A DNA stretch of 64,000 nucleotides. It comes from Haliotis asinina (taxonomy: Eukaryota; Mollusca; Gastropoda; Lepetellida; Haliotidae). The notes beneath the pieces are model-generated. The model had not been told where the DNA came from, searched no databases, and worked only from the letters and a program-made list of their open reading frames with translations. The position numbers and the translations under genes were made by a program. Shown piece by piece: positions 10,301 through 36,106 of the stretch. Position 1 is the stretch's first letter. Each line of letters begins with the position of its first letter. The stretch is taken from the NCBI RefSeq assembly GCF_037392515.1, contig NC_090291.1:14517001-14581000 (forward strand). Reading direction: 5' to 3'.

Positions 10301-13300
10301 CATGCAAAGCAAACTCGAAGTGTATGTTACATGCTATTCTTTCTTTTGACAGAGATCCCTGGTGTTGATACAATTGAAATGACCTACTCTCTCCATGATC
10401 AAGATGTCAGCTTACCTCATGTCTCCAACTCTGTGAGGTTGTATAAAAATGGTAAGTGATAAGGGGTAGTGATAAGAATCAAAGAATATCTGGAATTTAT
10501 ATCAGGTGAATTCCTGCCGAATAAACGATCAAAGAGGCAACCCCCCTATAACGTATATATTTAGTTTTTGAAACTGTATTTGCTCCTAGATCATTCAAAG
10601 ATCTTGGTATATATCATGTGAGTTATAAACACACAACTTCACATTGTAAGGTCTGTATTCATAAGAACAAAGATTGATTAATGTAAATCTATTTGTGTCA
10701 AGTTGTTGTAAATGGCCAAGATATTTTAACGATTAAACTTCTATATTCTTTCCTCACAACGTTTTGGAACCATTGCAGATCATTGCAGATCCCTTCATCA
10801 GCTGAACTGACATTATCAAAAGGTATTTGGCATAGTAGAGGTAGAGGTGGACACGCCCAAACGTCCACTGATCCGGAGATCCTTCACTGACTGTTTCCAA
10901 CAGATGGTGTTTCAAAGGCTGTCACCAGTCGCTACGTGTTTGCTCCATGAAATCATTTAGTGGCTGTTTCCCCGAGGGCGCCGTTCAGGGATCACTTTAA
11001 GTAAAGCACCATAGCGTGCTTGTTCCGTAGACATCTAATAATAGTTTGACCCTGTAGATCATTCGACAATGTCTTGCTCCAGTAGATCATTCAGTGACTT
11101 CTTGATGATCTAAAATGTAGAGTGTGAGATGATCCATTCACCTTTCTTCAGAAAATCATTACATTTGCCAAGGGGGCTAGGAATTCTAGAAGAATTGCCG
11201 GTTTACAGTTATACAAAATGATGTCATGACTGTTTGGAGGTCATCTAAAGATCGTCCGCTGATTATCAGTAGATCACCCAGTGACTGCTTGCTCCAATAG
11301 GCATTCATGTACTGCTCTTGACAATCCAAAATGCAGCGTCTGTACCTGGAGATCATCCACTGACTGTCCCTAAAAGGTTATGTCAGGGCTGTTTGGAGAT
11401 CATATAGGAGATCATCTGTTGACTGTTTGAGTCAGTAGATTATTCTCTAACTGCTCTTCGTGACTCACACCGTACATTGAGTGCAGAATGGCATGGCCGT
11501 TTGGAGGTCATCTAGGAGATCATCTGTTGATTATTTTCTCCATTGTGTAATTCAGTGACTGTATACTCCAAGAGTCCATTCAAGAAAATATTAGCATGTT
11601 CCCATGACATTATCTTTGCTCCTTGACCTCCGTCATTGGCTTAATTCTCTTGAAATCACTGAAGGACAGTATGCTGCAGGAGATCCCTCGGATCAATATT
11701 TTTTACAGAAAATTCTCCTGCGAGTTTTTAATCTTGTTTCAGCTCCTGGATCGTTCACTTACACTGTTCCAACTGAGAGTGCATTTACTGAGAAGAAAGT
11801 GCTTGAGTATGCAGTAAAATATCTGTCTGCAAATGGCCACGTTGTGTTTCACCTTGTGGACAAGTATACAATTCCCGGTAAGTAGTTCGGTAGGACATAC
11901 ATAAAATTTGAAAAACAAAATGCAATGACTGTGAAAATGTCGGTAACCATTTTCAACCTTCTCGATAAACCGTTTTGAGTTGAGTAACTTTTCAACTATA
12001 CTTCATAAAACCACAGAATTGGTCTTCATCAACCCATGCTTGTCTTATGAGGCGACTAACAGATCGGAAGGTCAGGTTCGCTGACTGGGTTAATGACTGG
12101 ATTATTTATAGATCTCCGCCATGTAGCTGACATATTGTTTAATTGCGTTTTAGGAGAAAATAGTTGACAAACCAAATGATAATATTGGATGTTTATCATC
12201 TGCCAGCTGCCTCATCTCTTAGTCCACGACTCTACAGGCGTAGCCATACCGTGATGTTTGACGATTTCCATTCAAGCCATCTAGACAGCAGCAAATGGAG
12301 GCACGAAATCACGTGCTGGGGAGGAGGGGTGAGAGTAACATTTTCATTCAGTTTGGTAAGAATGTATCCACGTGCGAGACAAATAACTATATCACACAAT
12401 TGTATGTGTATAGCCTATGGTCCGAAAGTCGATTACGTTTACATGAGGGCCTGATTACTAGTCTCGGTTCAAACATAAAGCGACTTTCAAAGTGATCTAT
12501 AAACACATGTCCTCTCATAGAGTCACACGGTGACGATCAAAGGAATGTCTGGTCATCACTCGGTTCGTTTACAAACAACATCATACAGCTGTAAACATAT
12601 GCTCATTATATGATCACAATTGTACAATGAACTTTTCATTTAGCGAGATTTCGTATAAGTTTCGAAAGAGCTTTGTCGGGACTCAGAGAGTAGTCCGCAT
12701 TGTGGAGACCACCTGATTGCGCAGACCCTGGATTTGACAGATTGACATGGTCCGTTAATACAGTCTTTAAATCTTGATGCAAATTCCATTCATATAACGG
12801 CCAAACGTAATGTCCACCCGAATCTACCCGTACAGGGTTTGTTTACGCGTCACGAGGTGTCATGAGAGATTGATCCGATGCAAGCATATCCATTCCACGC
12901 CTCTTCCTCAAAAGGAATATACGCCTCATCTTTTCAAGTACGGCCACGCACTATCTTAAAGTATTATGTCATAAACTAGGGGGTATCTGGCAGGACAATC
13001 CTTGGATGTACTCAAACAAATGGAAAGTCAACTTCATCTGGAAGCTAATTGTCGGTCTCTGTTGAATATCCGGGACTATTAGGGTTTTTAGGGGGATAAC
13101 AGATGCATTTTTGTTATCTTACATTCCTTCAGTGGCTGATAAAACCCTTTCGCAATGAGTCAACCATACGTGTTGGAAGACGTTATCTTTACGATTGCGA
13201 AAGGCACATATATGTCCATTCATGTGCAACTAATAAGCAATTAACACGTCACAATTTAATTCTGGACTCACAAAAGTCCAGAAACTCTCAGCACTGTGGC

Positions 13301-16300
13301 CACTCTCTCACAAGGGATTTCGCAAAATTAAACAGGCAGCTGTTATGTATATGTGCTAAGGATGAAAAATTTTTTTTCGAAAACTCAAAATTTAAACTCG
13401 CTCGCCCATGGGCACGCCCATGGGCGAACAGTGGCCAATGGGTAGGCCCATGGGCAGGCCCATGGGCGAAAGTGTTTACTTTCATCCAGAATAAATGTTT
13501 TGGAGGTTGTAAATGAATGAAAAAATGTTAATAAGTATCATGACACAAATTGCAGCTTGTTGTGACTTGACTCTGCTAACTGACAGCGATTTTAAAAAAT
13601 CTCGCCCATGGGTGAAAAACATATTGGCCCATGGACGAGAATAATTAATTTCATTGAAACTACATGTTTTTTTCCAGGCTTTGAGCTTTTCAATGAATGA
13701 ACTTGTATTTATTATTGTCTTGACACGAAATTAAGCTTAGTTTGACTTAATTCGGCTAATTAAGAGTGATGTTTCAAAACGCTTCGCCCATGGGCGAAAA
13801 CCATTTGGCCCATGGGTGAGAATATATACTTTTACTCAAAATACACCTTTTCCCATGTTTTGGAGGTTGTGAATGGATGAAAGTATGTTCGTAAGTATCA
13901 TGTCACAAAATTCAACTCATTTTGAATTAATTCCGTTAATTTAGAGCTATTTAACAAAATCTCACCCATGGGCGAAAAACATTTTGGCCCATGGGCGAGA
14001 ATATTTCCTTTTACCCCAAACACATCTTTTCCAATATTTGGAGGATGTGAATGAATGAAAGTACATTTATGAGTATCAGGACAGACATTTCAACTCATTT
14101 TGACTTAATTCCTCTAAATGAGAGCAATTTTGAAAACTCTCGCCCATGGGAGAAAGACATTTTGGCCCATGGGCGAGAATATTTGCCTTCACTCAAAATA
14201 CATTTTGACTTAATTCCTCTAAATGAGAGCAAGTTTGAAAACTCTCGCCCATGGGAGAAAGACATTTTGGCCCATGGGCGAGAATATTTCCTTTTACCCC
14301 AAACACATCTTTTCCAATATTTGGAGGATGTAAATGAATGAAAGTACATTTATGAGTATCAGGACAGACATTTCAACTCATTTTGACTTAATTCCTCTAA
14401 ATGAGAGCAATTTTGAAAACTCTCGCCCATGGGAGAAAGACATTTTGGCCCATGGGCGAGAATATTTGCCTTCACTGAAAATACATCTTTTCCTGTGGTT
14501 TCGAGGTTGTAAATGAATTAGGATACATTTGTAAGTATCATGGCACAAAATCCAACTCATTATGACTTAATTCTGCTAATTGAGACCGATTTTCAAAAAC
14601 ATCTCGCCCATGGGCGAAAAACATTGGGCCCATGAGCGAGAATATTTCCTTTTCACTTCAAATACATCTTTTCTAATGTTTTGGAGGATGTAAATGAATG
14701 AAAGTGCCATTGTGAGTATCAAGACACAAAATTCAACTCATTTTGACTTAATTTTGCGAGTTCAGGAAGATTTTTAAAAAATATGCCAGAATAATAATTT
14801 TTACTCAAAATACATCTTTTCCTGTGTTTTGGAGGTTGTAAAGGAATGAGGATATATTTGTAAGTATCATGGCACAAAATTCAACTCATTTTGACTTAAT
14901 TCTGCTAATTTGTAACAAGTACAAAAATCTGGACTTCCACTCAAATTTTCATAGTTTTTTTTATTGTCTTGGGGGTTGTAAATTTATAAATGAAAGTGTG
15001 TTTATAAGTATCACGACAAAAAAAATGAAATCATTCCGGTCTTAATTCGACTAATCTCGCTCGTGGACGAAAATATTTTCGTTTGCTCGTTTTCTTTATT
15101 TTGCAAACATGTGGTTTAAAAATAGATGAAATTCTAATGACAATTCAGTTTAATTTCGTGAGTTTAGTTTTATGTCGCACTCAGTAATATCCCAGCAATA
15201 TGGCGGCGGTTTGTAGATAATCGAGTTTGGATCAGACAATCCAGTGATCAACAGCATGAGCATCGACCTGCACAATTGGGAACTGATGACATGTGTCAGC
15301 AAAAGTCAGCGAGCCTGACCACCCCATCCCGTTAGTTACCTCTTACGACAAGCATAGTCGCATTTTATGGCAAGCATGGGTTGTTGAAGCCCTCTTCTAC
15401 TCCAGATCTCCACGGGTCCCGAACACAGAGCTTTACTTCCAGCAACATATACAGTACACTTAGAATACTAAGCCTTGAGATTCTTTTGAATTTAGGTATT
15501 CTATAAATATAAAGTTATGAAGTTATTTGTGAAAGCCCTAATCAAGAGTGACCAAACTCCAGTGACTATGCTGGGACACACTAATAAACGGTGTTGTGAT
15601 ATCTTTAAACTGTATTGAAATATGTCTTGTCAATTCCACTGACATTCGCCAAATGTACCTACCTAGTAGTTTTAAGTGTACCTACCCAGTTTAGCATGTT
15701 TCGTTTTAATAGTGTGGTCTCCATTTTTAGTAATTCCCGTTTGCCCGTCCCGGCTTTTCTTCGTCCGAGGTTTTATGGGGTATTCTCCTATTTGGCAGAC
15801 CAGAAATAATCTACAACAGGGGTAGGTCACTCGCTTGTTTTCTTTACCATTTGTACTAATTAGTATGCGCCTCCTCATGCTACAATGCACACAGTGACCT
15901 GATTCGTCTCCATCGCAACTTAGGCTGCGTTTAACAGTACTTCAGCCAGTTTACTGTATCAGTCGAAATCTTACAATGAATGAATGAATGAATGAATGAA
16001 TGAATGAAGATCAAGAAGTATATGTGAATGAATGAAAGAAATGATAAAAGAAAGAAGTGCATATGTGAATGAATGAGAAAGATATAATAAAAGAAAGAAG
16101 TACATATGTGAATGAATGAAAGAATAAAAACATGCTAAAGAACGCAAAACTATCGTTAGATCACATGTGTTAACATCAGCTTGTTATTGTCTCCCTGGTC
16201 AGACGTAACAATTGTCAGACAGGTTAAAACAACAAACTATCTGGTTGACTGCACAGCTGCCTGTTGACGTAGTATACCCACATCACCTACTTTTCCTGCG

Positions 16301-19300
16301 TAACCTTCATCTACATCACCATCCTTAAAGGTCACATACAACGTAAAACACAACTTTGCAGATTCTGGTACCTTTCGGTATGCACTTGCCGAAACAAATC
16401 ATAAAAAATGCCAATTCAATCTATAAAGTTGAAAAAAACGCGATGAAAAAAAGCCCGCGAAATCGGAGTTCAAACGTTTCAGTAAATTCCCCCCAGCGCT
16501 GGGGAAAAAACTGGTTTCAACAGCTGTGCTGCGCTGCGTCCATAACGCATGCGCAGTGAATAGGTTCGCGGAGCTTGAAACAGTATGTATGCCCAGAGTC
16601 TGAGGTCGTGAGCAGTAGTTTAATCTTGGTTGTGTACACAAACCAGTAAATAACCTACTCTTTACGTAAAACAACTTGTTGATTGTGGTAAGCAGTCTCT
16701 GTCACAGAGAAAGCTCATTGTCTGGTTTATTCACACCTATAAGTCTCTCTGCCTGTCTGCTAAAGACAACATGCAATACACAGCTTCAATCATTGACCAC
16801 GTGCAATTTGAACTTAACACCTATCAGACTATACGACATAAAGAAAATAAGCTGATTTATGACTCGTGCACCCGAGTCCCGTGTCTGCCACATTATGTAA
16901 TTAGGCACGTGTGATACACATGACATGCTTTTATGTCTGTGGGTTGCAAACAAACTACATTCATTTTTTTCGGATGACTGGATTTGACGGAAACTGGTGC
17001 AAACTCTTGTCAGTTTCAAGTCCTGCTTTGTACTTGGACGAATGACAGATTCCAGCCACGCAGTAGTTTACCATCTCTACTGACATGATTTTTGACTGGA
17101 TCGCGCGCAAATTCAGATAACATGTATTTTCAAAACCCAGCATCTCTATATACATTCTTCATGGATAACGACTTCTTTTAGTGTATATGATTTTGTTTGA
17201 CAACAGTATATGAATCCATACTGAAACGACGCATCAAGTACACAAAAACAAGTTGTTATCTATAAAGAATCTTTTCTTGTGACTGGCTATACTTGTAAAA
17301 TGCTCATCAAACAGATCATCTTTCTGAACACACAATGAACCCTCAGCATATCCGCAAATGAAACAGCCAATCGGAAGCCGTCGTTACACTTGAGTGCATA
17401 TCCACCCGCTATGACTGGGTTCGGTCTCCCGAGGGCTTCGTTTCGGGGGAAGTAAGCCCAAGTACAAAATATTGCACTTTTGAATCGCGATTGTACGTTT
17501 ATAATTTTGTTTATTTGGTTTTTTTTTAAAGCAGCAATGTATATCATATGTCATGAATAAGTGATAAATGTGTTTTAATTATGTTTGATTTTTTGGTTGC
17601 ATGTGACCTTTAATATATTGAGCAGAGAGCACAGAAGGCCCTGTAGCTGTAACCACTGAACCGTGGCGTCTCTCTGCTCCCAAGTTCCCAAGTGGGGGTG
17701 TCCTTCTCTACCTATTCCATTAATCTTTAAAACATCTAACAAGCTCAACGCATGCATTTTTTTTACTCAAATGTGATGTTATACATATCATAAGAGTATT
17801 TTTATGTATTATTCAGTTGATAAATTATTATTTCATGATGCATATATGTACAATATTTTGCTTCGATTCTGTAACTACCGACATTATGACATTGAGACCA
17901 TTCTGATTTATCGAGTAAAATACGATTGTATAGTTTTGAGTTTGAATCTTGGCATATTTTACCGGTTTGCCACTTTTGCACTCTGCCCTTTTAAAGGGGG
18001 CGTGCATATTTTGGTGGTTTTTAGTATTCCATCTATTCATTTGGATTTATTAATTTATTTGTTTTTGTTTTGTTTTGTTTTGTTTTTTACTGCTAGTGGG
18101 TCTGTTAGTCTTCTTTGATAACTGTAGATTTATTCTGACGTTTGACGAGCGGAACATGAAGTGTTGTTATCATGTATGTTATGTAATTATATTATTGGTA
18201 TGGAGCGGCAGTGATATGTATGTTTATGCTTGCCAATCCAGTCCCGATTACTTGAGATTAGTTTAAACTATAGATTAACGTATCCATACTATTACTGTGT
18301 AATCATTATATCGGGCTATGAGGAATACGTAATGTAATCAAGATTGACTTTGCGTTTACTTTTCTATTTTTTAAATAGATTTTCACTATTTTTGCTACAC
18401 TCGAAAAGATTTACTTTGCCTTTCGTGATTGTGGTCTCTAAGTATTTTAGAAATTATGTTGTTGAGACAACTAGAACTGTTGATCTGCAGTCTTTCAAAA
18501 TTCATTTTCACGAGATATATTCTCCCTTTTTACCAGTTCTCAAAATGAACATATAACCGTTTACACAAAGGTATCTTCCCGTAAAATAAGTAGGACGAAA
18601 CGTGAAGCATAGCAGCGCATTTGCCATAACTGAAATTGTTAAAATGATCCTGAAAACTGTCATTTTCAACATTCACCTTGCAAGCAATTTTATCAAGAAA
18701 CTAAATAACTATTTTACTAATGGAAGGAGTGAAATGAAAGCCCATTTTATTAACTGAAGTCACTGATTGAACTCGCTAACATCGATTCACTTACATTCTG
18801 GTACACGAGTCTTATTTCGTTTCCTGAGCACACACATTTTACTTTTTTATAGAAAATCCGTGTCTAATCCCATAAAACAACACCATTGTCACTACACCAA
18901 ACGATTTTGACCTCGACCTTAAACAAAGGTTTAACTTACAGGACTACCTGTAAGATATCCCTTTCTTGATAACGAGTTTAACAGCTACGCCGAAATGCTG
19001 CTTACCTAATAAGAAGTTGTATATCCATAGAATTTTCGTGGTTTTTGTCCAAATGATTATGACCTGAACAGATATTACTTTGTCAAAGACTTCATGAGTG
19101 ATTTTCAAGTTCTAATCCACACACAGATTTCCACTTTTTCATCATTTTGACTTTTATCTCAGTTTGTTGAGTATCTCAGCATAACTGGCAAAGACAATGG
19201 AAACTGAGCGGAACGGTGACGCTTTCTGTTTCTTCCGCGTTCACTTACGTAATTTCCGCAAAGCGCCTACGACAATTTGCGCCGAAAAAGTCATGTCTCG

Positions 19301-22300
19301 TCCGCTGGTTTGTTTATTGGAGTAAAATAGCTGCCGCTTTCAAGTGTATTTTACTTGTCATATACAAAATTCATCCATGGATCACATTAGGTCATTAGGG
19401 GACACCAGCTTTGAAATGTACAGGTGTTCGTGAGTGTATATGGATGAAAAAGACAGATTGCGCAAGACGCGCAGCCAAATATCTCACATTCAAAGGAAAT
19501 CTCGAATTGATTGTTTTATAAGGCGTCGAGCTGACCAGTTGGTTTTGGTGTTGTGTATAAACCTCCTTTGCAAGAACTTTGTCAAGCATACCTGCTTTGT
19601 CCTTTTGCAAGACCTGCACATATTAGTGTTTGAAAGACATTCACATTTATGTGCGTGTGCTCTGGAAAACATTGTCCGGCACGATATTCCTTCCAATTTA
19701 GTTATTGTGTGCATGCTGCATTTCAATTTTTGGAAATGTGCTTAAAACATATTTTGATTCTCAAAGAATGTGGTTCGTTTAGCAAGTAAAATATTGCTTT
19801 GATTAACACTTCACCAGTACTATACAATATTACAGAATACACAAAACCGGAAACACAAAAACGACAAATTATAGCATTGTGATTAGGGGTATATGGGGTT
19901 ATAGGAGTCCCTTTTTATCCACCGAGACAAGCCCTACACGCCCTGGTGGGGTGTGGATTCGGGGGAGGGGGTAACGGAGGAGATGACCAAGACACACGTA
20001 CTCCATACGCTATCATGGTCTTCCTTACTGCTTGAAGATCGACCTTTTCTCACTGTGGTCTATGATGACTTCGGTGAACGGAAAAGAACTTATTCACTGT
20101 GAAAACCAGAAAATAGTTGAATCCGTCCACGATTTTATCATAAAACACAAAGCTTGATTTTTAATTTTTTAACAGAAACTAATTAACTTGTCAAAAACCT
20201 TCTCACAAATGTTCAGTGTTTCTACAAAGAGCTAGTCAGACACAACAAACCATAACTCTATTTTTCATGTTTACTTATATGATAGTTGTATTTGATGTAA
20301 TGATATGTATGCATATGTTATTATATGATAGTTCATATGGATGACGACACATGCTTCATTTATATTTTGTATTATATGCTGTATGGGTGAGGTACTGTAA
20401 AGCTTGTTCACCAGTCCCAATCAGAGTTACAAAACACACAAATATACAACAACATGGAGATGTGTGGAGAAAATAGAGACATATGGAGAACAGCAATGTC
20501 ATAACTGAACAGAAATCATTCCCTCTATTGTTGAAGGCCGTGTGGGATTAGTTAAACAAAGAAATCTAGTCGACCATGTCTCCTAATCCTCTTACTCCTT
20601 AAACAAACGACTTTCCTGGGCTGTCTAAACTTGAATTGAAATTTTTGTAAATTCGATGTTTCGGGTATTACGTAAGGAGGTAATCAGGTGTCAACACTAT
20701 GGCGTTCGACGTTCCGGACATGAAGGAAAACCAAATACGTTATAAAGTACAGTAATGTGGTCACTATGAGCGAGGCAGACAGTCTGATGAGCACAGCTCA
20801 TTACGGAAATCTCTTGTCTTTGGAGCTGCTCGTTGAGACGCTGAAGCCTTCTGTCAAGTTCTTCTTTATTCTTTATTGTGGCCACTGTGTCACAATATGC
20901 TGTTTACATTGCTCACAGACCCTCGATTCACGATGACGCCAACTTTCTCGACTACTGTTCGTGCGACGACTATCATTCAGGAATTGGTTCCACAGCTCAT
21001 TCTTTCACCGATGTCTTTGTGTATGTGTTTTAGCTCGTTAATTAGCGTAGAGACGAGTCTTCTGCTATTCTCGGGCACAAGTTCTCCAAGGCAGTCGACG
21101 CTCCGGGTGTCATTAGAACAGTGTTGAGCACTGTCACACTCCACTGCTTTTCGACAGCCCTGTTGTGTATTTGATAAAACAATCGACAATCCGGGTGTGA
21201 ACCAAAAGAGGATACCACCATTCTCATCGCTAGATGAAATGGGATGAAGAAAACCCGCACACTCTTCATCACATTGCTACACCGTATTTACCATAACGAA
21301 TGTTTAAATAGCACTTTATGTAAATAGAGCATCAAAACAAGCTGAAACCATGTATTATATTAACATGGTACTAACTATAGTCGATTCGAACCACTGTTCT
21401 ACAGTTCACTGACTGCCTTGGATGCAGGCTTTTCCCACGTGGCGGGGTAAAACTTAATGATCTATTCTCCCTCGCAAGGCCACGTGAACCAATCAGAAAT
21501 GGACATTCTTAAATGGGGTAGGAGAAATGTGCCCTGTAGGTTCTCGTCAAACGTCAGAATAAATTTACAGGTACCAAAGCAGACTCACTCGCTGGGCGAC
21601 TAGCAATAAAAAAAACCCAAACAAAGCAAAAACAGATAGATCAATTAATTTAAACAAATAGATGGAATACTAAAAACCACCTAAATATTAGCATGCACGC
21701 ATCGTTTAAAAAGATAGAGCGCTAAAGTGGCAAGATTCAAACTCAAAACTATTCAATCAAATTTTACTCGATAAATCAAAATGGTCTCAATGACATAATG
21801 TGGTTAGTTACAGAATCAAAGCAAAATATTTGACATGTTTATGTGCGATTTATTTAGCAAAGCCAGAAGAATCCCCGACAAACACAACCGCTTCTTCTCA
21901 ATATGTGGGTTTGTGAGAGTGAGGGTACTCCCTACAAGGCTCACTCCCATTAGTTAACAAGGCGTCCTCCCATTTGGTAGAGTCGATATACTAAGATCAT
22001 AGGGGATTTAGCAACCATGTTGGATTGAAGGAATGACAAAACTCTGTGATAGATTAATGAGTGTCTTTTTTAAGCATTATGAAAATGGTAATGGTAAATT
22101 AACACAAAATGCCCTAAACCTGTCCAGCGTGTCATATATATAATTTAATTTATAATTTATCAACTGAATAATACATAAAAATACTCTTATGATTATGTAT
22201 AACATCACATTTTAATAAAAAGGTGCATGCGTTGAGCTTGTTCGATGTTTTAAAGATTAATGGAAGAGGTAGAGAAGGACACCCCCACTTGGGAACTTGG

Positions 22301-25300
22301 GAGCAGAGAGACGCCGCGGTTCAGTGGTTACAGCTATAGGGCCTTCTGTGCTCTCTGCTCAATATATTAAGGGTGGTGATGTAGATGAAGGTTACGCAGG
22401 AAAAGTAGGTGATGTGGGTATACTACGTCAACAGGCAGCTGTGCAGTCAACCAGATAGTTGGTTGTTTTAACCTGTCTGACAATTGTTACGTCTGACCAG
22501 GGAGACAATAACAAGCTGATGTTAACACATGTGATCTAACGATAGTTTTGCGTTCTTTTGGAAGGGATGGCCGTGGTGTAGCATTTATTCTTTCATTCAT
22601 TCACATATGTACTTCTTTCTTTTATTATATCTTTCTCATTCATTCACATATGCACTTCTTTCTTTTATCATTTCTTTCATTCATTCACATATACTTCTTG
22701 ATCTTCATTCATTCATTCATTCATTCATTCATTCATTGTAAGATTTCGACTGATACAGTAAACTGGCTGAAGTACTGTTAAACGCAGCCTAAGTTGCGAT
22801 GGAGACGAATCAGGTCACTGTGTGCACTGGAGCATGAGGAGGCGCATACTAATTAGTACAAATGGTAAAGAAAACATGCGAGTGACCTACCCCTGTTGTA
22901 GATTATTTCTGGTCTGCCAAATAGGAGAATACCCCATAAAACCTCGGACGAAGAAAAGCCGGGACGGGCAAACGGGAATTACTAAAATGGAGACCACACT
23001 ATTAAAACGAAACATGCTAAACTGGGTAGGTACACTTAAAACTACTAGGTAGGTACATTTGGCGAATGTCAGTGGAATTGGCAAGACATATTTCAATACA
23101 GTTTAAAGATCTCACAACACCGTTTATTAGTGTGTCCCAGCATAGTCACTGGAGTTTGGTCACTCTTGATTAGGGCTTTCACAAATAACTTCAACTTCAT
23201 AAATATAGGTTGAATACCTAAATTCAAAAGAATCTCAAGGCTTAGTATTCTAAGTGTATTGTATATGTTGCTGGAAGTAAAGAGCTTCAACAACCCATGC
23301 TTGCCATAAAAGGCGACTATGCGTGTCGTAAGAGGCGACTAACGGGATGGGGTGGTCAGGCTCGCTGACTTGGTTGACACATGTCATCAGTTCCCAATTG
23401 TGCAGGTCGATGCTCATGCTGTTGATCACTGGATTGTCTGATCCAAACTCGATTATCTACAAACCTGCCGCCATATTGCTGGGATATTACTGAGTGCGAC
23501 ATAAAACTAAACTCACGAAATTAAACTGAATTGTCATTAGAATTTCATCTATTTTTAAACCACATGTTTGCAAAATAAAGAAAACAAGCAAACGAAAATA
23601 TTTTCGTCCACGAGCGAGATTAGTCGAAATAAGAACGGAATGATTTCATTTTTTTGGTCATGATACCTATAAACACACTTTCATTCATATATTTACAACC
23701 TCCAAGACAATAAAAAAAACTATGAAAATTTGAGTGGAAGTCCAGATTTTTGTACTTGTTACAAATTAGCAGAATTAAGTCAAAATGAGTTGAATTTTGT
23801 GCCATGATACTTACAAATATATCCTCATTCATTTACAACCTCTAAAACACAGGAAAAGATGTATTTTGAGTAAAAGTGATTATTCTGGCATATTTTTAAA
23901 AATCTTCCTGAACTCGCAAAATTAAGTCAAAATGAGTTGAATTTTGTGTCATGATACTCATAATGGCACTTTCATTCATTTACATCCTCAAAACATTAGA
24001 AAAGATGTATTTGGAGTGAAAAGGAAATATTCTCGCTCATGGGCCCAATGTTTTTCGCCCATGGGCGAGATGTTTTTGAAAATCGGTCTCAATTAGCAGA
24101 ATTAAGTCATAATGAGTTGGATTTTGTGCCATGATACTTACAAATATATCCTAATTCATTTACAACCTCCAAACCACAGGAAAAGATGTATTTTGAGTGA
24201 AGGCAAATATTCTCGCCCATGGGCCAAAATGTCTTTCTCCCATGGGCGAGAGTTTTCAAAATTGCTCTCATTTAGAGGAATTAAGTCAAAATGAGTTGAA
24301 ATGTCTGTCCTGATACTCATAAATGTACTTTCATTCATTTACATCCTCCAAATATTGGAAAAGATGTGTTTGGGGTAAAAGGAAATATTCTCGCCCATGG
24401 GCCAAAATGTTTTTCGCCCATGGGTGAGATTTTGTTGAATAGCTCTAAATTAACGGAATTAATTCAAAATGAGTTGAATTTTGTGACATGATACTTACGA
24501 ACATACTTTCATCCATTCACAACCTCCAAAACATGGGAAAAGGTGTATTTTGAGTAAAAGTATATATTCTCACCCATGGGCCAAATGGTTTTCGCCCATG
24601 GGCGAAGCGTTTTGAAAAATCACTCTTAATTAGCCGAATTAAGTCAAACTAAGCTTAATTTCGTGTCAAGACAATAATAAATACAAGTTCATTCATTGAA
24701 AAGCTCAAAGCCTGGAAAAAAACATGTAGTTTCAATGAAATTAATTATTCTCGTCCATGGGCCAATATGTTTTTCACCCATGGGCGAGATTTTTTAAAAT
24801 CGCTGTCAGTTAGCAGAGTCAAGTCACAACAAGCTGCAATTTGTGTCATGATACTTATTAACATTTTTTCATTCATTTACAACCTCCAAAACATTTATTC
24901 TGGATGAAAGTAAACACTTTCGCCCATGGGCCTGCCCATGGGCCTACCCATTGGCCACTGTTCGCCCATGGGCGTGCCCATGGGCGAGCGAGTTTAAATT
25001 TTGAGTTTTCCGAAAAAATTGTTTTCATTTTTTCATCCTTAGCACATATACATAACAGCTGCCTGTTTAATTTTGCGAAATCCCTTGTGAGGGAGTGGCC
25101 ACAGTGCTGAGAGTTTATGGACTTTTGTGAGTCCAGAATTAAATTGTGACGTGTTAATTACTCTTGCAATGTCACTTCCTTTTATACAGGGTGGTCAGTT
25201 CCAGATGTACACACCGGAAGCTGCGAACACCTACATAAAGAATGGCGTCCTCTACCTCAAACCGGTATTGACCTCCTGTATACAGTCATAGTCAAAGCAA

Positions 25301-28300: not shown

Positions 28301-29321
28301 CTTCCATACTTACGCCATTGACTGGACCGCTGACCACATAAGGTGCGTTGGAAGAAATATTACGTTGATCCTCCAGAGGGAAAAGACAAGGAACGTTTAT
28401 ATCTCAGTGCATATTTGTGAAACATTTTGTAAACTCTTACCAACATTGTACAGTTGACACCGATCAATATGTAAACAAAGCAGTTAATAGATGTGTACAC
28501 TGGGGGTGAAGTCATGTCCATTCAAGCAAGAATTCTGTTTTCTCATCAATCAGGACTGAAATAGATCATCATCCACTTCAAGTCATGCCGACCCCTTCCA
28601 ACGGATTCTTTTCATACAGTCACCTCTCTGGCACCAATCCCTGGGCAAAGGGTGGCAAAAACGCGCCCTTTGATGGACCTGTAAGTTTTCATTTGAGAGC
28701 GAAAAGGTCCTTGGGTTATGGACATTATACTGAGTTTTAGTCTAACTGAAAGTCTTCTAACAATCAATCAATAAAACTCCTCCCGTTTCGTGACCCGTGA
28801 AGGTCCCGGGGTAGAATAGGCCTTCAGCAACCCATGCTTGCCATAAAAGGCGACTATGCTTGTCGTAAGAGGCGACTAACGGGATCGGGTGGTCAGGCTC
28901 GCTGACTTGGTTGACGCGTGTCATCGGTTCCCAATTGCACAGATCGATGCTCATGTTGTTGATCACTGGATTGTCTGGTCCAGACTCGATTATTTACAGA
29001 CCGCCGCCATATAGCTGGAATATTGCTGAGTACGGCGTAAAACTAAACTCACTCACTCACTCCTCCCGTTTCGGAAATCAAAATCATTGGACTTTGAATG
29101 TTATTTACGTTTTTCAGATGGGTCTTATTTTGAACGTTGCTGTGGGTGCCACGGATGGCTATTTCTCTGATTCGTATCATAATGGTAACGGTAAACCATG
29201 GAGAGACGGCTCTCAGACGGCCATGATGGACTTCTGGAAGAACAGGCACCAATGGCAATCTACCTGGCATGGCGAAGACGTCGCTATGAAGATCAAGTCC
29301 GTCAAAATGATCCAATATTAG
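7323..29321 (+). CDS. Gene B: secreted GH16 beta-1,3-glucanase / glucan-binding protein
   Basis: Twelve exons: 7323-7434, 10353-10451, 11743-11877, 12207-12328, 25190-25264, 25551-25611, 26871-27038, 27290-27373, 27629-27725, 28280-28342, 28554-28680, 29118-29321. They sum to 1,347 nt (448 codons plus TAG) with phases 1,1,1,0,0,1,1,1,2,2,0, all consistent. Residues 1-20 (MTIKIFFATLLVGLCYTS) look like a signal peptide; this is the first in-frame ATG, with A at -3. Residues about 38-116 form an N-terminal domain resembling the carbohydrate-binding region (CBM39 type) of glucan-recognition proteins, a weak assignment. GH16 begins near VMFDDFHSSHLDSSKWRHEI and has TLTADKFGENFL, YGRIEVVAQLPKGDW, then E278-I-D280-I-M-E283, so both catalytic glutamates are kept, unlike many insect binding-only homologues. 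Expected role: extracellular cleavage or recognition of beta-1,3-glucan. Exon 9 has a weak donor (see its entry). Intron 4 is 12.9 kb because of a giant mobile inverted repeat. AATAAA follows at 29,358. Confidence 0.85.
8397..8566 (-). other. Exon-like open stretch, unidentified
   Basis: On the minus strand an open frame of about 56 codons (IEIVFLSVANSVERLYSEDK..., RFARKDEWRIWKIMFDL) is bounded by a CTGGCAG acceptor-like site and a perfect GTAAGT donor-like site. The frame continues open past the donor. I do not recognise the protein. It lies inside intron 1 of gene B and could be a LINE ORF1-like relic, an exon of a nested gene, or chance. The unit-2 copy at 41,445-41,614 has one replacement (D to G). 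Confidence 0.2.
9093..9398 (-). mobile_element. LINE fragment, 3' end of the reverse-transcriptase ORF
   Basis: The open frame ends with a CLYCH...VEGELLETNC pattern preceded by FRPAVKNRC. This resembles the Cys-rich tail that closes many non-LTR retrotransposon polyproteins (C-x2-C, then VE-x-E, then C). It is downstream, on the same strand, of the reverse-transcriptase piece at 9,774-9,962, and a SINE sits between them. Assignment of the tail alone is tentative. Confidence 0.4.
9522..9740 (+). repeat. Abalone-type SINE, nearly full length
   Basis: (GTGA)n head, TACGCCGCACTCAGCAATAT, GGCGGCGGTCTGTAAATAAT, CCAGACAATCCAGTGATCAA, and TGACCACCCGATCCCGTTAG in order. The 3' tail is shortened. It sits between the two LINE fragments. 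Confidence 0.85.
9774..9962 (-). mobile_element. LINE reverse-transcriptase fragment
   Basis: The minus-strand frame contains PYFKYNIGIRQGCTLSPQ at about 9,843-9,897, a clear match to the G-[VI]-R-Q-G-C-x-L-S-P motif of non-LTR reverse transcriptases. The frame then runs into unrelated sequence, so it is a dead fragment, located in intron 1 of gene B. Confidence 0.65.
10058..10292 (+). repeat. Abalone-type SINE, old diverged copy
   Basis: All main blocks are present in order but with many changes (for example GCGCCCTAATCAGCAATATT). It ends about 60 bases before exon 2 of gene B. Confidence 0.65.
10890..11590. repeat. Degenerate tandem repeat in intron 2 of gene B
   Basis: Phrases such as TAGATCATTCAGTGACT, TGTTTGGAGGTCATCTA and AGGAGATCATCTGTTGA recur irregularly about every 50-70 bases, rich in GATC. 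No coding content is seen. The unit-2 copy lies at about 43,938-44,640 and has one 2-base indel. Confidence 0.6.
12024..12140 (-). repeat. SINE fragment in intron 3 of gene B
   Basis: Reverse-strand blocks CAACCCATGCTTG, GGCGACTAAC, TCGCTGACT and GGATTATTTATAGATC are seen with deletions between them. The unit-2 copy is at about 45,075-45,191. Confidence 0.6.
12329..13244. other. First part of intron 4 of gene B
   Basis: About 0.9 kb before the giant inverted-repeat element. I see no repeat, exon or RNA gene in it. The unit-2 counterpart is 45,380-46,295. Confidence 0.5.
13395..15080. repeat. CCCATGGG tandem array, left arm
   Basis: About ten units of 178-185 bp; one is shortened to about 100 bp near 14,144-14,244. 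Each unit has two copies of CGCCCATGGGCGA-like palindromes some 20 bases apart, then AATACATCTTTTCC, TTTTGGAGGTTGTAAATGAA, TAAGTATCATGACACAAA and CAACTCATTTTGACTTAATT. The palindromes become degenerate in the inner units. Open frames across it on both strands are by-products. The unit-2 copy is at about 46,446-48,131. Confidence 0.85.
15157..15420 (+). repeat. SINE inside the left arm
   Basis: Full block order of the abalone-type SINE. The same insertion is present in the right arm (23,285-23,518, minus strand) and in the single arm (31,804-32,091), so it entered the element before the arms were copied. Unit-2 copy at 48,208-48,471. Confidence 0.85.
16329..17609 (-). mobile_element. Kolobok-like DNA transposon relic with THAP domain, 1,281 bp
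   Basis: The ends are AGGTCACAT and ATGTGACCT (9 bp perfect, extending imperfectly to about 20 bp) and both sides have TTAA (16,325-16,328; 17,610-17,613). The right arm of the host element and the single arm at about 33,032 have an uninterrupted TTAATATATTG at this point, so the insertion and its TTAA duplication are shown directly. On the minus strand, from 17,074 downward, MVNYCVAGICHSSK then LHQFPSNPVIRKK matches the start of a THAP zinc finger (C-x-x-C type, FP before a basic run); the rest of the finger is disrupted. TTAA plus THAP is the combination known for Kolobok elements. It is too short to be autonomous. Confidence 0.75.
18153..21545. other. Loop of the giant inverted repeat, unclassified
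   Basis: About 3.4 kb present once per element, AT-rich, without recognisable transposase. The only coding-like stretches are on the minus strand: 20,977-21,276 and 20,697-20,885 (see the separate entry). Unit-2 copy at about 51,196-54,588 is almost identical. Confidence 0.5.
20977..21276 (-). other. Unidentified open frame in the loop, Cys-rich
   Basis: Ninety-nine codons are open without a stop on the minus strand. The frame reads GGILFWFTPGLSIVL, then a stretch with five cysteines (GCRKAVECDSAQHC, SVDCLGEL) and an amphipathic segment LVSTLINELKHIHKDIG. Just downstream on the same strand a second frame (20,697-20,885) starts with a coiled-coil-like ELDRRLQRLNEQLQRQ. Together they could be remains of exons or of an element-encoded gene, but I recognise neither. 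The unit-2 copy is at 54,020-54,319. Confidence 0.2.
23285..23518 (-). repeat. SINE inside the right arm
   Basis: Reverse-strand counterpart of the SINE at 15,157-15,420, including the arm-specific variants such as TTATGTCGCACTCAGTAATA. Unit-2 copy at 56,324-56,557. Confidence 0.85.
23590..25010. repeat. CCCATGGG tandem array, right arm (inverted)
   Basis: Reverse-complement counterpart of the array in the left arm, lacking the extra short unit. The outermost block has five CCCATGGG-type sites close together, as in the left arm. The unit-2 copy is at about 56,629-58,049. Confidence 0.85.
25951..26043 (-). repeat. SINE 3'-end fragment
   Basis: CCCGTGAAGGTCC, CAGCAACCCGTGCTTACCAT and GACTATGCTTGTCGTAAG in order, minus strand. 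Unit-2 copy at 58,989-59,081. Confidence 0.65.
26687..26744 (+). pseudogene. Partial duplicate of exon 7 of gene B (pseudoexon)
   Basis: The sequence TCTGTTTTCCAG|AGCAGTGG with GACGTGCACATACAG and CTGGGATCGAAGAATGAAAT repeats the acceptor and the first part of the true exon at 26,871, about 184 bases downstream. It lacks about 16 bases in the middle, stops matching after about 60 bases and has no matching donor, so it should not give a functional exon. The intact acceptor could still attract splicing. The unit-2 copy is at about 59,725-59,782. Confidence 0.75.
27629..27735 (+). promoter_or_regulatory. Weak 5' splice site of exon 9 of gene B
   Basis: Genes A and C end this exon with GGATATGGAAG|GTAGCC or GTATAT. 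In gene B the corresponding end has changed to CAACATCGGCAACAGTCTC. The only GT that keeps the phase needed by exon 10 is at 27,726-27,727 (CAACA|GTCTCA), a poor donor. The resulting protein would lack about eight residues compared with A and C. Unit-2 copy: GT at 60,764-60,765. Confidence 0.45.
28036..28126 (-). repeat. SINE 5'-end fragment
   Basis: TTGTCTGGTCCAGACTCGAT, TTCCGCCATATAAC and GCGTAAAACTCATTC on the minus strand. Unit-2 copy at 61,074-61,164. Confidence 0.65.
28791..29061 (-). repeat. Abalone-type SINE, full length
   Basis: The most complete copy in the window, about 270 bp: ACCCGTGAAGGTCCCGGGGT at its 3' end, all internal blocks, and a (GTGA)n head read as CACTCACTCACTC. It sits in the last intron of gene B, about 57 bases before the last exon. 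Unit-2 copy at 61,829-62,099. Confidence 0.9.
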
Positions 29322-30360: not shown

Positions 30361-30404
30361 TTTCCCAAGATCAAAACAATTACAATATTTTCAGTTTATA
30401 ATAA

Positions 30405-33400
30405 CATGTCACAATTTAATTCTGGACTCACAAAAGTCCAGAAACTCTCAGCACTGTGGCCACTCTCTCACAAGGGATTTGGCAAAATTAAACATGCAGC
30501 TGTTATGTATATGTGCTAAGGATGAAAAAATGAAAACAATTTTTTTTCGAAAACTCGAAATTTAAACACGCTCGCCCATGGGCGAAAGTGTTTAATTTCG
30601 TCCAGAATAAATGTTTTGGAGGTTGTAAATGAATGCAAAAATGTTTATAAGTATCATGACACAAATTTCAGCTTGTTGTGACTTGAATCTGCTAACTGAC
30701 AGCGATTTTTAAAAATCTCGCCCATGGGTGAAAAACATATTGGCCCATGGACGAGAATAATTACTTTCACTGAAAATACATGTTTTTCCATGCTTTGCAG
30801 TTTTTAAATAAATGAACGTGTATTTATTAGTGTCTTGACACGAAATTAAGCTTATTTTGACTTAATTCGGCTAATTTAGAGTGAATGTTTAAAAAGTCTC
30901 GCCCATGGGCGAAAAACATATGGCCCATGGGTGAGAATATTTACTTTTACTCAAAATACATCTTTTCCCATGTTTTGGAGGTTGTAAATGAATGAGGATA
31001 TATTTATAAGTATCATGCCACAACTCATTTTGACTTAATTCCATTAATTTAGAGCGATTTAACAAAATCTCACCCATGGGCGAAAAACATTTAGGCCCGT
31101 GGGCGACAATATTTCCTTTTACCCCAAATACATCTTTTCCAATGTTTTGGAGGATGTAAATGAATGAAAGTACATTTATGAGTATCATGACAGAAATTTC
31201 AACTCATTTTGACTTAATTCCTCTAAATGAGAGCGATTTTCAAAAACTCTCGCCCATGGGGGAAGAACATTTTGGCCCATGAGCGAGAATATTTCCTTTT
31301 CACTCCAAATACATCTTTTCTAATGTTTTGGAGGATGTAAATGAATGAAAGTGCCATTATGAGTATCATGACACAAAATTCAACTCATTTTGACTAAATT
31401 TTGCGAATTCCGGGCGATTTTTAAAAAATATGCCAGAATAATTACTTTTACTCAAAATACATCATTTCCTGTGTTTTGGTGGTTGTAAATGAGTGAGGAT
31501 ATATTTATAAGTATCATGGCACACAATTCAACTCATTTTGACTTAATTCCGCTAATTTGTAACAAGTACAAGAATATAGACTTCCACTTAAATTTTCATA
31601 GTTTTCTTTTAATGTCTTGGAGGTTGTAAATTTATGAATGAATGTGTGTTGATAAGTATCATGACAAAAAAATCATTCCGGTCTTAATTCGACTAATCTC
31701 GCTCGTGCACGAAAATATTTTCGTTTGCTTGTTTTCTTTATTTTGCAAACATAATATTATGATTTAAAAATAGATGAAATTCTAATGACAATTCAGTTTA
31801 ATTTAGTGAGTTAGGTTTTATGTCGCACTCAGTAATATCCCAGCAATATGACGGCGGTTTGTAGATAATCGAGTTTGGACCAGACAATCCAGTGATCAAC
31901 AGCATGAGCATCGACCTGCACAATTAGGAACTGATGACATGTGTCAACCAAGTCAGCGTGCCTGACCACCCTATCCCGTTAGTCGCCTTTTACGACAAGC
32001 ATAGTCGCCTTTTATGGCAAGCATGGGTTACTATTCTACCTCGGACATGTGTTGCTGAAGTCCTCTTCTACTTCTGATCTTCACGGGTCCCGAACACAGA
32101 GCTTTACTTCCAGCAACATATACAGTACACTTAGAATACTAAGCCTTGAGATTCTTTTGAATTTAGGTATTCTATAAATAAAACAAAATTCAAGCTATAT
32201 CTATGAAGTTGAAGTTATTTGTGAAAGCCCTTATCAAGAGTGACCGAATTCCAGTGACAATGCTGGGACACATTAATAAACAGTGTTGTGAGATCTTTAA
32301 ACTGTATTGAAATATGTCTTGTCAATCCCACTGACATTCGCCAAATGTACCTACCTAGTAGTTTTAAGTGTACCTACCCAGTTTAGCATGTTTCGTTTTA
32401 ATAGTTTGGTCTCCATTTTTAGTAATTCCCGTTTGCCCGTCCCGGTTTTTCTTCGTCCGAGGTTTTATGGGGTATTCTCCTATTTGTCAGACCAGAAATA
32501 ATCTACAACAGGGATATGTCACTACAACAGGGATATGTTTTCCTTACCATTTGTACTAATTAGTATGCGCCTCGTCATGCTCCAGTGCACACAGTGACCC
32601 GGTTCGTTTCCATCGCAACTTCGGCTGCGTTTAACAGTTCTTCAGCCAGTTTACTGCATCAGTCGAAATCTTATAATGAATGAATGAATGAAGAGCAAGA
32701 AATATATGTGAATGAGTGAAAGAAATAATAAAAGAAAGAAGTGCATATGTGAATGAATGAGAAAGAAATAATAAAAGAAAGAAGTGCATATGTGAATGAA
32801 TGAAAGGAAATATGATACACCACGGCCATCCCTTCCAAAACATGCTAAAAAACGGAAAACTATCGTTAGATCACATGTGTTAACATCAGCTTGTTATTGT
32901 CTCCCTGGTCAGACGTAACAATTGTCAGACAGGTTAAAACAACCAACTATCTGGTTGACTGCACAGCTGCCTGTTGACGTAGTATACCCACATCCCCTAC
33001 TTTTCCTGCGTAACCTTCATCTACATCACCTTCATTAATATATTGAGCAGAGAGCTCAGAAGGTCGTATAGCTGTAACCACTGAACCGTGGCGTCTCTCT
33101 GCTCCCAAGTTCCCAAGTGGGGGTGTCCTTCTCTACCTCTACAATCTCAACGCATGCATCTTTTCACTAAAATGTGATGTTATACATAATCATAAGAGTA
33201 TTTTATGTATTATTCAGTTGATAAATTATTATTTTATGATACATATATGTATGACATGCTGGACATGTATAAGGCAATTTGTGTTAATTTACCAGTCCCA
33301 TTCTTATTTTCATAAAGCATAAAAAGACATTAATCTATCACAGAGTTTTGTGATTCTTTCACTCCAACATGGTTGCTAAATCCCCTCTGATCATCGTATT

Positions 33401-33407
33401 TTGACTC
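30405..33407 (+). mobile_element. Single arm of the giant-element family (arm 3)
   Basis: Colinear with the left arm of the 11.9-kb element: an end CATGTCACAATTTAATTC, the CCCATGGG array (about 30,565-31,700), the arm SINE (31,804-32,091), a TGAA run (about 32,675), the uninterrupted TTAATATATTG site near 33,032 where the left arm has the 1,281-bp insertion, and an inner part that matches the right arm rather than the left from about 33,250 to 33,407. It differs from the other arms by roughly 4% in a sample. There is no inverted partner nearby. Confidence 0.8.
31804..32091 (+). repeat. SINE inside the single arm
   Basis: Same insertion as in the two arms of the large element (TTATGTCGCACTCAGTAATA variant), with a fuller 3' tail ending GATCTTCACGGGTCCC. 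Confidence 0.85.
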
Positions 33408-33416
33408 TCTCATACC

Positions 33417-33668
33417 ATGCCCCGTACAGGCAGACCTCGAGTTACCACTGCAGCCCAAGATCGTACGTCTGGGTACAACAGTTTCCTGATCGTACTGCCA
33501 CGGGTGAGGGCACAGCAGACAGGGTGCCTGGACCTCAGAGGATATCCGGTCAAATTGTACGCAACAGGTTGAAAGACATTGGTCTCAGAACCAGGAAGCC
33601 TGATATTGGGGTCGTGCTACGTCGTCCCCATCGCACCCAACGTGTCCGTTATCAAAATGCATCCACTT
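33417..33668 (+). mobile_element. Tc1/mariner transposase fragment
   Basis: Pieces in different frames resemble the DNA-binding half of Tc1-like transposases: TGRPRVTTAAQDR first, then RISGQIVRNRLKDIGLRTRK and RRPHRTQRVRYQNA. It starts just where arm 3 stops matching its relatives and ends about 260 bases before gene C. No inverted terminal repeats are seen. Confidence 0.6.
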
Positions 33669-34726
33669 GATTGTAAAGACATTGCCTACTCTTGCGTTAC
33701 AAAATCATACACAAAAGTCTCTTTGTGGACGAGCTCTATAAGTTTGTATCGACACTACCTTCTTCTAAATGGTGTACAATTTCATGCACTAAAGTGTACT
33801 TGTGGATGAGTCATGCAACAGATTTCTCGTCTATGCGTTTCTTTTTAAGGATAGTATATTATTTACAGGCGTTAAGCAACACACGAATAAAGGCATAAAT
33901 CCATGGCATTTCATGTTTGTCTACAGAGCAATGGGGAACGTGTACATACTACAGTGACAGTGGTTGCCACCGTCTGGGATCGAAGAATGAAATCCCCCCT
34001 ATCATCTAAACTCTATTCTAAGACTTCAATCACCTATGGAAGAATAGAGGTCGTTGCACAGTTACCTAAAGGAGACTGGTTATGGCCTGGTGAATATTTC
34101 CAATTTTTCATGACATTATTGTTTCCTGAAAAGCTTTCGATATTCAGATGAAATACTCCCTGAATAGGTTTCTTTGTTGTCCGTAATAGCTGAAGTATAA
34201 ATACAAAACGATTCATGTGTCAGCACGTGGTTTAAAGTTTCGAAATGAGACCAGTGAGTGTTTGACGCAACAAGCTACTCCTAACAACACATCATAGTGT
34301 GATCAATATATACGTTGTGTTTTAAGTTGTAAGTGTGTGTGTTAGTTAATCTCTCACTCCTCGTTTAATGGTTACCATAGCAATATGGATGCTTCCTCCC
34401 AAAAGACCATGGAAATATGGTGGATGGCCAGCTTCCGGCGAGACAGATATCATGGAGGCAAGGGGTAAGTCTCACCTTTCCAGTGTTGTGACTCCAGTCT
34501 ATTACCGTTACTGCATTTATAGATGTATGAAAGACTAAGTCTATGGTCAACCTGCCTCTGGGTATACATGTTGTTCCTCTATACTTCTGCTGTATCATTT
34601 TATTTTGATGACTTATACATTATTAATTGTGTACTGTGAGTAAGCCACAAAATGCTAAAATCAATCCAAGGCTTCTACTCAAGTGTTAAAGCGTGTGCCA
34701 AATTTGAAATAATGTATCAACATATA

Positions 34727-36065: not shown

Positions 36066-36082
36066 TATATTTTGATTGGACT

Positions 36083-36106
36083 TTTTGGCCTCTAGAATTA
36101 AATTGT
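36083..36106 (-). repeat. Short relic of the giant element's terminus
   Basis: GGACTTTT then TCTAGAATTAAATTGTGACG matches the end of the 11.9-kb element (GTCCAGAATTAAATTGTGAC). It directly follows the Tc1/mariner element in an intron of gene C; only this terminal piece is visible. Confidence 0.5.

Follow-up and report, generated by a model that had tools for sequence, protein, structure and literature searches.

The giant inverted repeat in the stretch of Haliotis asinina DNA analysed here (64,000 nucleotides of contig NC_090291.1, hereafter the window) belongs to a large family of hairpin-shaped DNA elements of about 11 kb without recognizable genes. The family is a new, unusually large example of the known foldback kind, not a new kind of element: it combines very long inverted arms containing internal tandem repeats with dispersed copies flanked by target duplications, and most of its copies have little coding capacity or none. 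Overall, the structure probably arose by insertion of a member of a non-autonomous foldback-type family of DNA transposons, the arms of which have been kept alike by arm-templated repair.

Distribution of the family in the genome

The terminal 18-mer had 720 exact copies in the genome, compared to a single one for the reversed control, and the foldback copies were dispersed over many contigs. Among the first 100 ends, 62 formed 31 convergent pairs, 24 of which spanned 8.7-12.6 kb (median of all 31 = 10.8 kb), while three neighbouring end pairs pointed in the same orientation. Extrapolated from these ends, the family would number about 580 copies. The loop of the window element was present in all nine other long copies compared, with 93-100% of its length covered. 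Forty loop matches were scored among 372 candidates, and all showed 95-100% identity, two of them being the window's own. A 1.2-kb copy (L024), counted outside the nine long copies, possessed arm sequence and no loop.

These data bear on whether the repeat arose without transposition, through inverted duplication of intron DNA on the spot, a reading that the initial annotation would have favoured had no other genomic copy shared its ends and loop. The locus has undergone tandem duplication (see below), and nothing specific to this reading was found beyond that. Ends and loop like those of the window element recurred at numerous unlinked sites, flanked by 4-bp target duplications, and as the nine long copies all share both loop and arms with the window element, local duplication is excluded, its probability being close to nil. 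The size of the family, the convergent pairing of its ends and the target duplications all support the mobile foldback element proposed originally.

Termini and target site duplications

The target duplications were read in 32 terminus pairs. Of these, 29 belong to the 31 convergent pairs, one is the window copy and two were drawn from a list of TTAA sites, which biases them to AATT. Two convergent pairs were omitted: that at C1:26.75 Mb, whose right end lay beyond the fetched piece, and one of two 32.8-kb pairs of equal length. In all 32 pairs, which come from the same genome, AA/TT adjoined CACG. An exact 4-bp target duplication of varied sequence (including ATAC, GACT, CACC, TTTG and GTGG) was found in 27 of them and a 5-bp duplication in one, the other four having no exact duplication at the expected offset. 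With shuffled terminus partners, a 4-bp duplication appeared in 4% of cases.

In the window copy, TTAA borders the outer side of CACG at either end. It occurred at 141 of the 720 exact termini, which would agree both with the TTAA flanks described initially and with a TTAA-specific transposon of the piggyBac or classical Kolobok type. The flanks are however not TTAA: the apparent TTAA of the window copy consists of the last two bases of AATT, its actual target duplication, and the terminal AA. Across the 32 pairs AA/TT was constant whereas the duplicated 4 bp varied, and because counting AA as target leaves most pairs without a direct duplication, a TTAA-type element is refuted and should be regarded as extremely unlikely. 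The termini did correspond to the 5'-RR..YY-3' form of classical Kolobok elements (AA..TT in 32/32 pairs), but the family had neither the TTAA-specific duplication of piggyBac nor the TTAA-specific 4-bp duplication of classical Kolobok (PMC9587614). A search for the empty site of the window insertion, allowing up to three mismatches, gave no match.

Anatomy of the window element and its host locus

The giant inverted repeat, its matching ends and its internal arrays of about 180-bp repeats proved real. Since AA/TT belongs to the terminus, as read from the 32 terminus pairs, the full-length element runs from 13243 to 25155 (11,913 bp), so that the previously proposed extent of about 11.9 kb was retained and the limits (13245-25153) were corrected. 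It is flanked by AATT target site duplications at 13239-13242 and 25156-25159 (both + strand). The left terminus (13243-13262, + strand), to which the 720 exact 18-mer copies refer, reads AACACGTCACAATTTAATTC, with a small stem (TGGACT/AGTCCA) behind it; the right terminus (25136-25155, - strand) is AACACGTCACAATTTAATTC inverted. The left-arm array (13494-14928, + strand) is made of the 180-bp repeats with GCCCATGGGC palindromes, and the right-arm array (23769-24894, - strand) contains the same repeats and is shorter by approximately one 283-bp unit. The motif CCCATGGG occurred 28 times in the element and was absent from 28.7 kb of other window DNA.

The arrays are followed by the inner left arm (14929-17828, + strand) and the inner right arm (22152-23768, - strand), then by a pair of more diverged inner segments (17852-18149, + strand, and 21543-21830, - strand) with 78.5% identity to each other. 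The inner left arm harbors a nested 1,281-bp element (16329-17609) with AGGTCACAT ends and a duplicated TTAA (16325-16328 and 17610-17613), for which the right arm represents the empty site. As a result of this nested insertion, the left arm measures 4.9 kb instead of the 3.6 kb reported at first. The arms are indeed near-identical, but the earlier estimate of 98.6% became 98.1% for the outer arms (2,760 aligned columns) and 96.7% of 3,278 columns when the inner 0.3 kb or so was added. The loop (18150-21542), common to the other long copies compared, had the expected size of about 3.4 kb, and its six-frame translation contained no convincing Pfam domain. The window element was also scanned for Rfam families and tRNAs, without a match.

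The element lies inside a 33-kb tandem duplication (4506-30966 and 37556-64000, 99.46% identical), and the window thus contains a second full copy of the same insertion (46294-58193). A damaged relative of the element occupies 30402-36115; read by eye, it appears to contain Tc1-like insertions, and its outer ends have no common target duplication. The proximity to a splice acceptor and the intact downstream exon noted initially were both confirmed: the element ends 34 bp before the acceptor (36 bp from CACG), and the exon-like frame GGQFQMYTPEAANTYIKNGVLYLKP (25190-25264, + strand) is open and the same in both tandem copies. This frame probably belongs to a gene that we take to be of the GH16-type glucanase/glucan-binding family (EIDIME motif at 27349); no Pfam domain was detected in six frames across this gene region, and the 25-residue exon had no match in the PDB. 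Judged by its sequence, the intronic element would allow a long double-stranded RNA to form.

Coding content of the long copies

The full-length relative with a transposase envisaged by the initial annotation was not seen in the copies read. Among the long copies read, no transposase or autonomous relative was detected, the genes present being those of nested LINEs or of a virus-like block, and the frames scanned contained no P-type transposase. The genes in the 18.9-, 22.7-, 26.2-, 32.1- and one of the 32.8-kb pairs encoded reverse transcriptases of nested LINEs.

The long copies at C1:12.59 Mb and C10:48.42 Mb possessed nearly the same virus-like block (96% identity over the 8 kb compared), presumably Polinton-like. 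This block has its own inverted ends and, at C1, a repeated flank of about 5 bp (read by eye). Since it has its own ends and lies in the loop of one copy (C1, element position ~6,465) and in an arm of the other (C10, ~9,270), the block is nested, and its genes were rejected as the autonomous form of the family. Its frame of about 1,240 amino acids matched the Pfam domains Rho_N and endonuclease VII, with a weak match to Capsid_N (E = 0.009), and no polymerase or integrase domain was matched in the block frames scanned with Pfam. Polinton/Maverick elements have target duplications of about 6 bp and a set of virus-like genes, whereas the foldback family duplicates 4 bp, and the virus-like genes of the two copies lie in this nested insertion.

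Termini followed by a different sequence (six plus two matches) were considered as candidate autonomous partners. Seven of the eight possessed the usual subterminal sequence, slightly changed in some cases, and a LINE starts in one.

Concerted evolution of the arms

Within an element, the left and right arms shared a mean identity of 98.97% (eight elements), compared to 93.88% for the same arm between elements (median 95.52%; 73 pairs) and 93.64% for opposite arms between elements (median 95.31%; 70 pairs); two pairs sharing fewer than 250 columns were excluded, as was the second copy in the window. For 15 of the 16 arms the nearest neighbour was the other arm of the same element, and the arm tree pairs them accordingly, the exception (352 bp shared) being closest to another element. 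As arms were closer within than between elements, whichever arms were compared, the arms evolve in concert in this assembly.

The likeness could also reflect merely the youth of the insertions and source elements with identical arms, in which case no exchange after insertion would be needed. Two observations agree with this explanation, which we nevertheless consider doubtful. In the window, 51 left/right differences were retained in both tandem copies and no site was clearly homogenised since, although two of seven new sites might reflect either mutation or conversion limited to one site. Array lengths also differed between arms, by 88-368 bp, in all five different elements measured on both sides (for the remaining elements a value was missing on at least one side). 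The persistence of the 51 differences means that the arms do not exchange continuously, or else that too little time has passed since the duplication (~0.1% arm divergence) to tell. Against youth alone stands the divergence of arms among elements: opposite arms are nonetheless about as close as same arms, so that arms must have been equalised in separate lineages at some stage. A palindrome extended into the loop also argues against it.

This extended palindrome, at C2:3.634-3.646 Mb, includes two inverted loop stretches with 99.75% identity over 1,185 bp. The copied tract did not cross the whole arm, since the arm segment beyond the extension was just 88.5% alike (375 columns, 13 mismatches, 30 gap positions). 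At C1:12.593 Mb, the palindrome runs into the host flank, with inverted flanks 99.3% identical over the 303 bp compared and no target duplication. A 290-bp piece of this flank was found on both sides at 99% while a piece 5 kb out was single, and the flank belongs to a repeat with ten other matches (81-91%). Each type of extension was found at one locus in the assembly and may be an assembly error at a palindrome.

Proposed mechanism and comparison with known elements

Under the preferred explanation of a non-autonomous family with arm-templated repair, a DDE-type transposase encoded elsewhere would recognize the AACACGTCAC ends, excise the element and reinsert it into sites of varied but mostly AT-rich sequence, cut with a 4-bp stagger. 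A broken or resected arm would probably be restored by copying from its partner arm within the element (fold-back or gene-conversion repair). Such tracts may sometimes overrun, either into the loop or, in the other direction, into host DNA, giving a longer palindrome. The concerted arms and the two extended structures point to this route as the probable source of both arm likeness and extensions. A bolder version appears improbable, namely that an unrecognised transposase lineage with AA..TT ends and untargeted 4-bp duplications is combined with self-templated fold-back repair that maintains the giant arms and can turn adjoining host DNA into inverted duplicates, hundreds of dispersed elements acting as palindrome seeds.

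Drosophila FB elements share the foldback architecture and the tandem repeats in the arms, but generate 9-bp duplications instead of 4 bp. Galileo, a foldback-like Drosophila element of the P superfamily, also differs in its target duplications (7-8 bp in Galileo and the P superfamily); the P-type transposase of its complete copies was not seen in the foldback copies read. Galileo has long, internally repetitive TIRs with 98-100% identity between those of one copy, TIRs that grow by recruiting internal sequence, and copies without transposase, and its authors propose tract overrun of the kind outlined above (PMC3573991). The longest D. mojavensis TIRs are however about 1.26 kb, compared to 3.3-3.6 kb in the window copy, and its target sites 7 bp (PMC3573991). 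Tetris, a Drosophila virilis foldback element, is apparently non-autonomous, with a middle lacking apparent coding capacity and arms made of a flanking domain, arrays of ~220-bp tandem repeats and an inner domain; it differs by TIRs of up to 1,735 bp, target duplications of 8-10 bp and three structurally complete copies in its own assembly (PMC4079207). The internal arrays, first thought unusual for a foldback element, are therefore not so, the arms of Tetris and Galileo also being repetitive (PMC4079207, PMC3573991), while the size is indeed unusual when measured against both.

The family could be a derivative of, or a passenger on, a KolobokP-like transposon, moved by the KolobokP transposase. 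KolobokP occurs in molluscs and other animals, two abalone species (Haliotis) among them, and has RR..YY termini and target duplications of 3-5 bp (3-4 or 4-5 bp) without strong target preference (PMC9587614), with which the terminal AA..TT and the varied 4-bp (once 5-bp) duplications of the foldback family agree. The ends of KolobokP are however formed by long direct repeats (~450 or 660 bp), and it has coding capacity (PMC9587614), with a DDD/E transposase and a His-Me nuclease inside, whereas the foldback family has inverted arms and no recognizable genes, the loop of the window copy being without a domain in Pfam, which may lack that transposase. Moreover, 45 His-Me nuclease matches were obtained in the genome at E up to 10 (30 over the cut-off), none of the eight loci fetched had a foldback terminus within about 1.5 kb, and no sequence shared between KolobokP and the family was shown. 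A KolobokP origin is thus unlikely. No account of this family was found among the open-licence titles listed or in PMC3573991, PMC4079207 and PMC9587614.

With its large size, very long arms, common loop and clean target duplications, the family offers a natural data set on the likeness of inverted repeats within an element. The loop- and flank-extended copies, if real, show where copying tracts stopped, and arms that begin alike and diverge with time could be used to date insertions in the way that LTRs are. Finally, intronic copies could give rise to long double-stranded RNA.

Structure of the element

Self-comparison of the window placed the paired outer arms of the inverted repeat, which spans 13243-25155 (11,913 bp), at 13243-17828 on the left and 22152-25155 on the right, around a loop at 18150-21542. 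The left arm is longer because it carries a nested element of 1,281 bp (16329-17609; ends AGGTCACAT, bounded by TTAA duplicates), for whose site the right arm provides the uninterrupted counterpart. This nested element was also present in the foldback locus at C1:12.59 Mb (family copies are named here by contig and position) and absent from the 8 other copies compared. The outer arms were 98.1% identical over 2,760 columns, with an identity of just 78.5% in the next 0.3 kb inward. Each arm contained an array of a ~180-bp repeat with GCCCATGGGC palindromes, and CCCATGGG, found 28 times in the element, was absent from 28.7 kb of other DNA in the window. A short repeat at 15158-15423, 23285-23516 and 28787-29052 resembles an abalone SINE, which makes an abalone (Haliotis) the probable source of the sequence. 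The longest ORF entirely within the element was 113 aa (stop to stop), and six-frame comparison of the loop with Pfam returned no convincing domain, the two matches (E 0.04 and 0.19) lying far below cut-offs.

Family size and target site

The element is one member of a family. Its 18-base terminus had 720 matches in the 1.14-Gb genome, compared to 1 for the reversed control. Among the first 100 ends, 62 made 31 convergent pairs, 38 had no convergent partner, and 3 same-orientation neighbouring pairs occurred. Pair lengths were 8.7-12.6 kb in 24 cases, 18.9-32.8 kb in six and 1.2 kb in one, the last consisting of arm sequence alone. Assuming that ends stay exact independently, the 31 pairs and 38 singles give an estimate, not a count, of ~580 elements with about 62% of ends exact. 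A 400-bp piece of the loop yielded 372 first-look candidates in the genome, and all 40 that were scored matched at 95-100% (two being the window's own copies). In all nine other long copies read whole or in large part, the loop was present, at 93-100% coverage, as were both arms, at 75-100%.

The target site was inspected in 32 pairs (29 of the 31 convergent pairs, two taken from the termini with TTAA, and the window copy). Just outside CACG, the left end had AA and the right end TT in 32/32 pairs, so these two bases are part of the element. Outside them, an exact direct repeat of 4 bp was found in 27 pairs and of 5 bp in one, compared to 4% for shuffled partners; the exact repeat was missing at the expected offset in the other four, two of which had a 4-bp match one base off. 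The duplicated bases varied among pairs (e.g. ATAC, GACT, CACC, TTTG), AATT accounting for 6/32, including the two pairs chosen for their TTAA. TTAA itself stood at 141/720 termini. The element is thus not TTAA-flanked, contrary to the initial annotation, and the TTAA beside it is a coincidence of reading.

Arm identity within and between elements

Measured over an arm segment that is single-copy, the arms belonging to one element were 98.3-99.7% alike in 9 comparisons, whereas identity between elements averaged 93.9% for the same arm (median 95.5%, 73 pairs) and 93.6% for the opposite arm (median 95.3%, 70 pairs). The nearest neighbour was the arm's own partner for 15 of 16 arms, and the tree paired partners. 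In separate lineages of elements, therefore, the arms have become equalised independently of one another. Equalising is incomplete, since the array part differed by 88-368 bp between arms in all five different elements measured on both sides.

Two copies carried palindromes that extend beyond the arms. At C2:3.634-3.646 Mb, the centre opened with a loop stretch and went on with 48 bp from the far end of the loop, about 135 bp of unplaced sequence and then a second, inverted loop stretch; the two loop stretches were 99.75% identical over 1,185 bp. The arm segment compared outside this extension, separated from it by 0.95 kb, was just 88.5% alike, with gaps; the copied tract must therefore have begun further in. 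At C1:12.593 Mb, the only one of 31 pairs tested with a palindromic flank, the host flanks were mutual inverted copies (99.3% over the 303 bp compared) reaching both termini exactly, and no direct repeat was present at the ends. A genome search recovered the flank duplicate at 99%, whereas sequence taken 5 kb out was single. The flank itself is part of a repeat that matched 10 further places at 81-91%. From their sequence, both copies look like cases of copying beyond the arm; an assembly error is possible.

For the Galileo transposon, terminal inverted repeats (TIRs) are reported to be 98-100% identical within one copy, and its authors proposed such repair, with one TIR as template plus tract overrun (PMC3573991). 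Arm-templated repair is thus already known in outline.

Alternatively, the arms could be alike since the insertions are young, with no exchange after insertion needed. The unequal array lengths and the poorly alike arm segment at C2:3.634 Mb favour this explanation and make it slightly less improbable, although we still regard it as unlikely. Regarding exchange between arms, the tandem duplication of the locus served as a timing test: 51 left/right differences were retained in both window copies, 7 sites were new (2 of which could be one-site conversions), and none was clearly equalised within either copy. At least during the short time since the duplication, then, the arms have not been exchanging sequence continuously; exchange may accompany transposition or breaks.

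Search for a mobilising enzyme

Almost no termini had different sequence behind them: searches gave 6 and 2 matches, and just one of these 8 had foreign sequence, a LINE. The reverse transcriptases in the long copies read were those of nested LINEs. Two copies (C1:12.59 Mb and C10:48.42 Mb) harboured a virus-like block, presumably Polinton-like, with 96% identity across the compared 8 kb; it encoded a protein of about 1,240 aa with Rho_N and endonuclease VII matches. At C1 the block measures about 14.4 kb and lies within 12.606-12.621 Mb, with its C10 counterpart within 48.42-48.44 Mb. As a driver of the family it was rejected, because it has inverted ends of its own and lies in the loop of the C1 copy but in an arm of the C10 copy, and is therefore nested.

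Among published elements, KolobokP, which has been reported in two species of abalone (PMC9587614), agrees best in the type of its termini and the length of its duplication; its terminal repeats are direct, whereas those of the foldback family are inverted. The His-Me nuclease family PF05551 had 45 genome matches at E up to 10, and the foldback terminus was found at none of the 8 loci fetched. Most of the loci fetched lay next to arrays of tandem repeats; loci nearly identical to one another occurred on C4 and C17, and also on C11. Given these direct repeats and the 0/8 loci, the family was filed as foldback-type only, without a superfamily.

Genomic surroundings and significance

The element lies within a 33-kb tandem duplication (4506-30966 vs 37556-64000; 99.46% identity) containing a probable GH16-type gene. 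An exon-like frame begins 34 bp past the element's end, identically in both tandem copies; together with a downstream EIDIME motif, it suggests a GH16-type glucanase or glucan-binding protein. Searches for this identity (gene region in six frames against Pfam, exon frame against PDB) gave no match. The damaged third foldback copy presumably contains Tc1-like fragments (33390-36080), recognised by eye. Beyond the window, the tandem unit seems to recur, because C12:14504899 and C12:14585874 share the same rare terminus variant.

Overall, the foldback family is of an ordinary kind, stands out by its size and gives useful evidence on arm dynamics.
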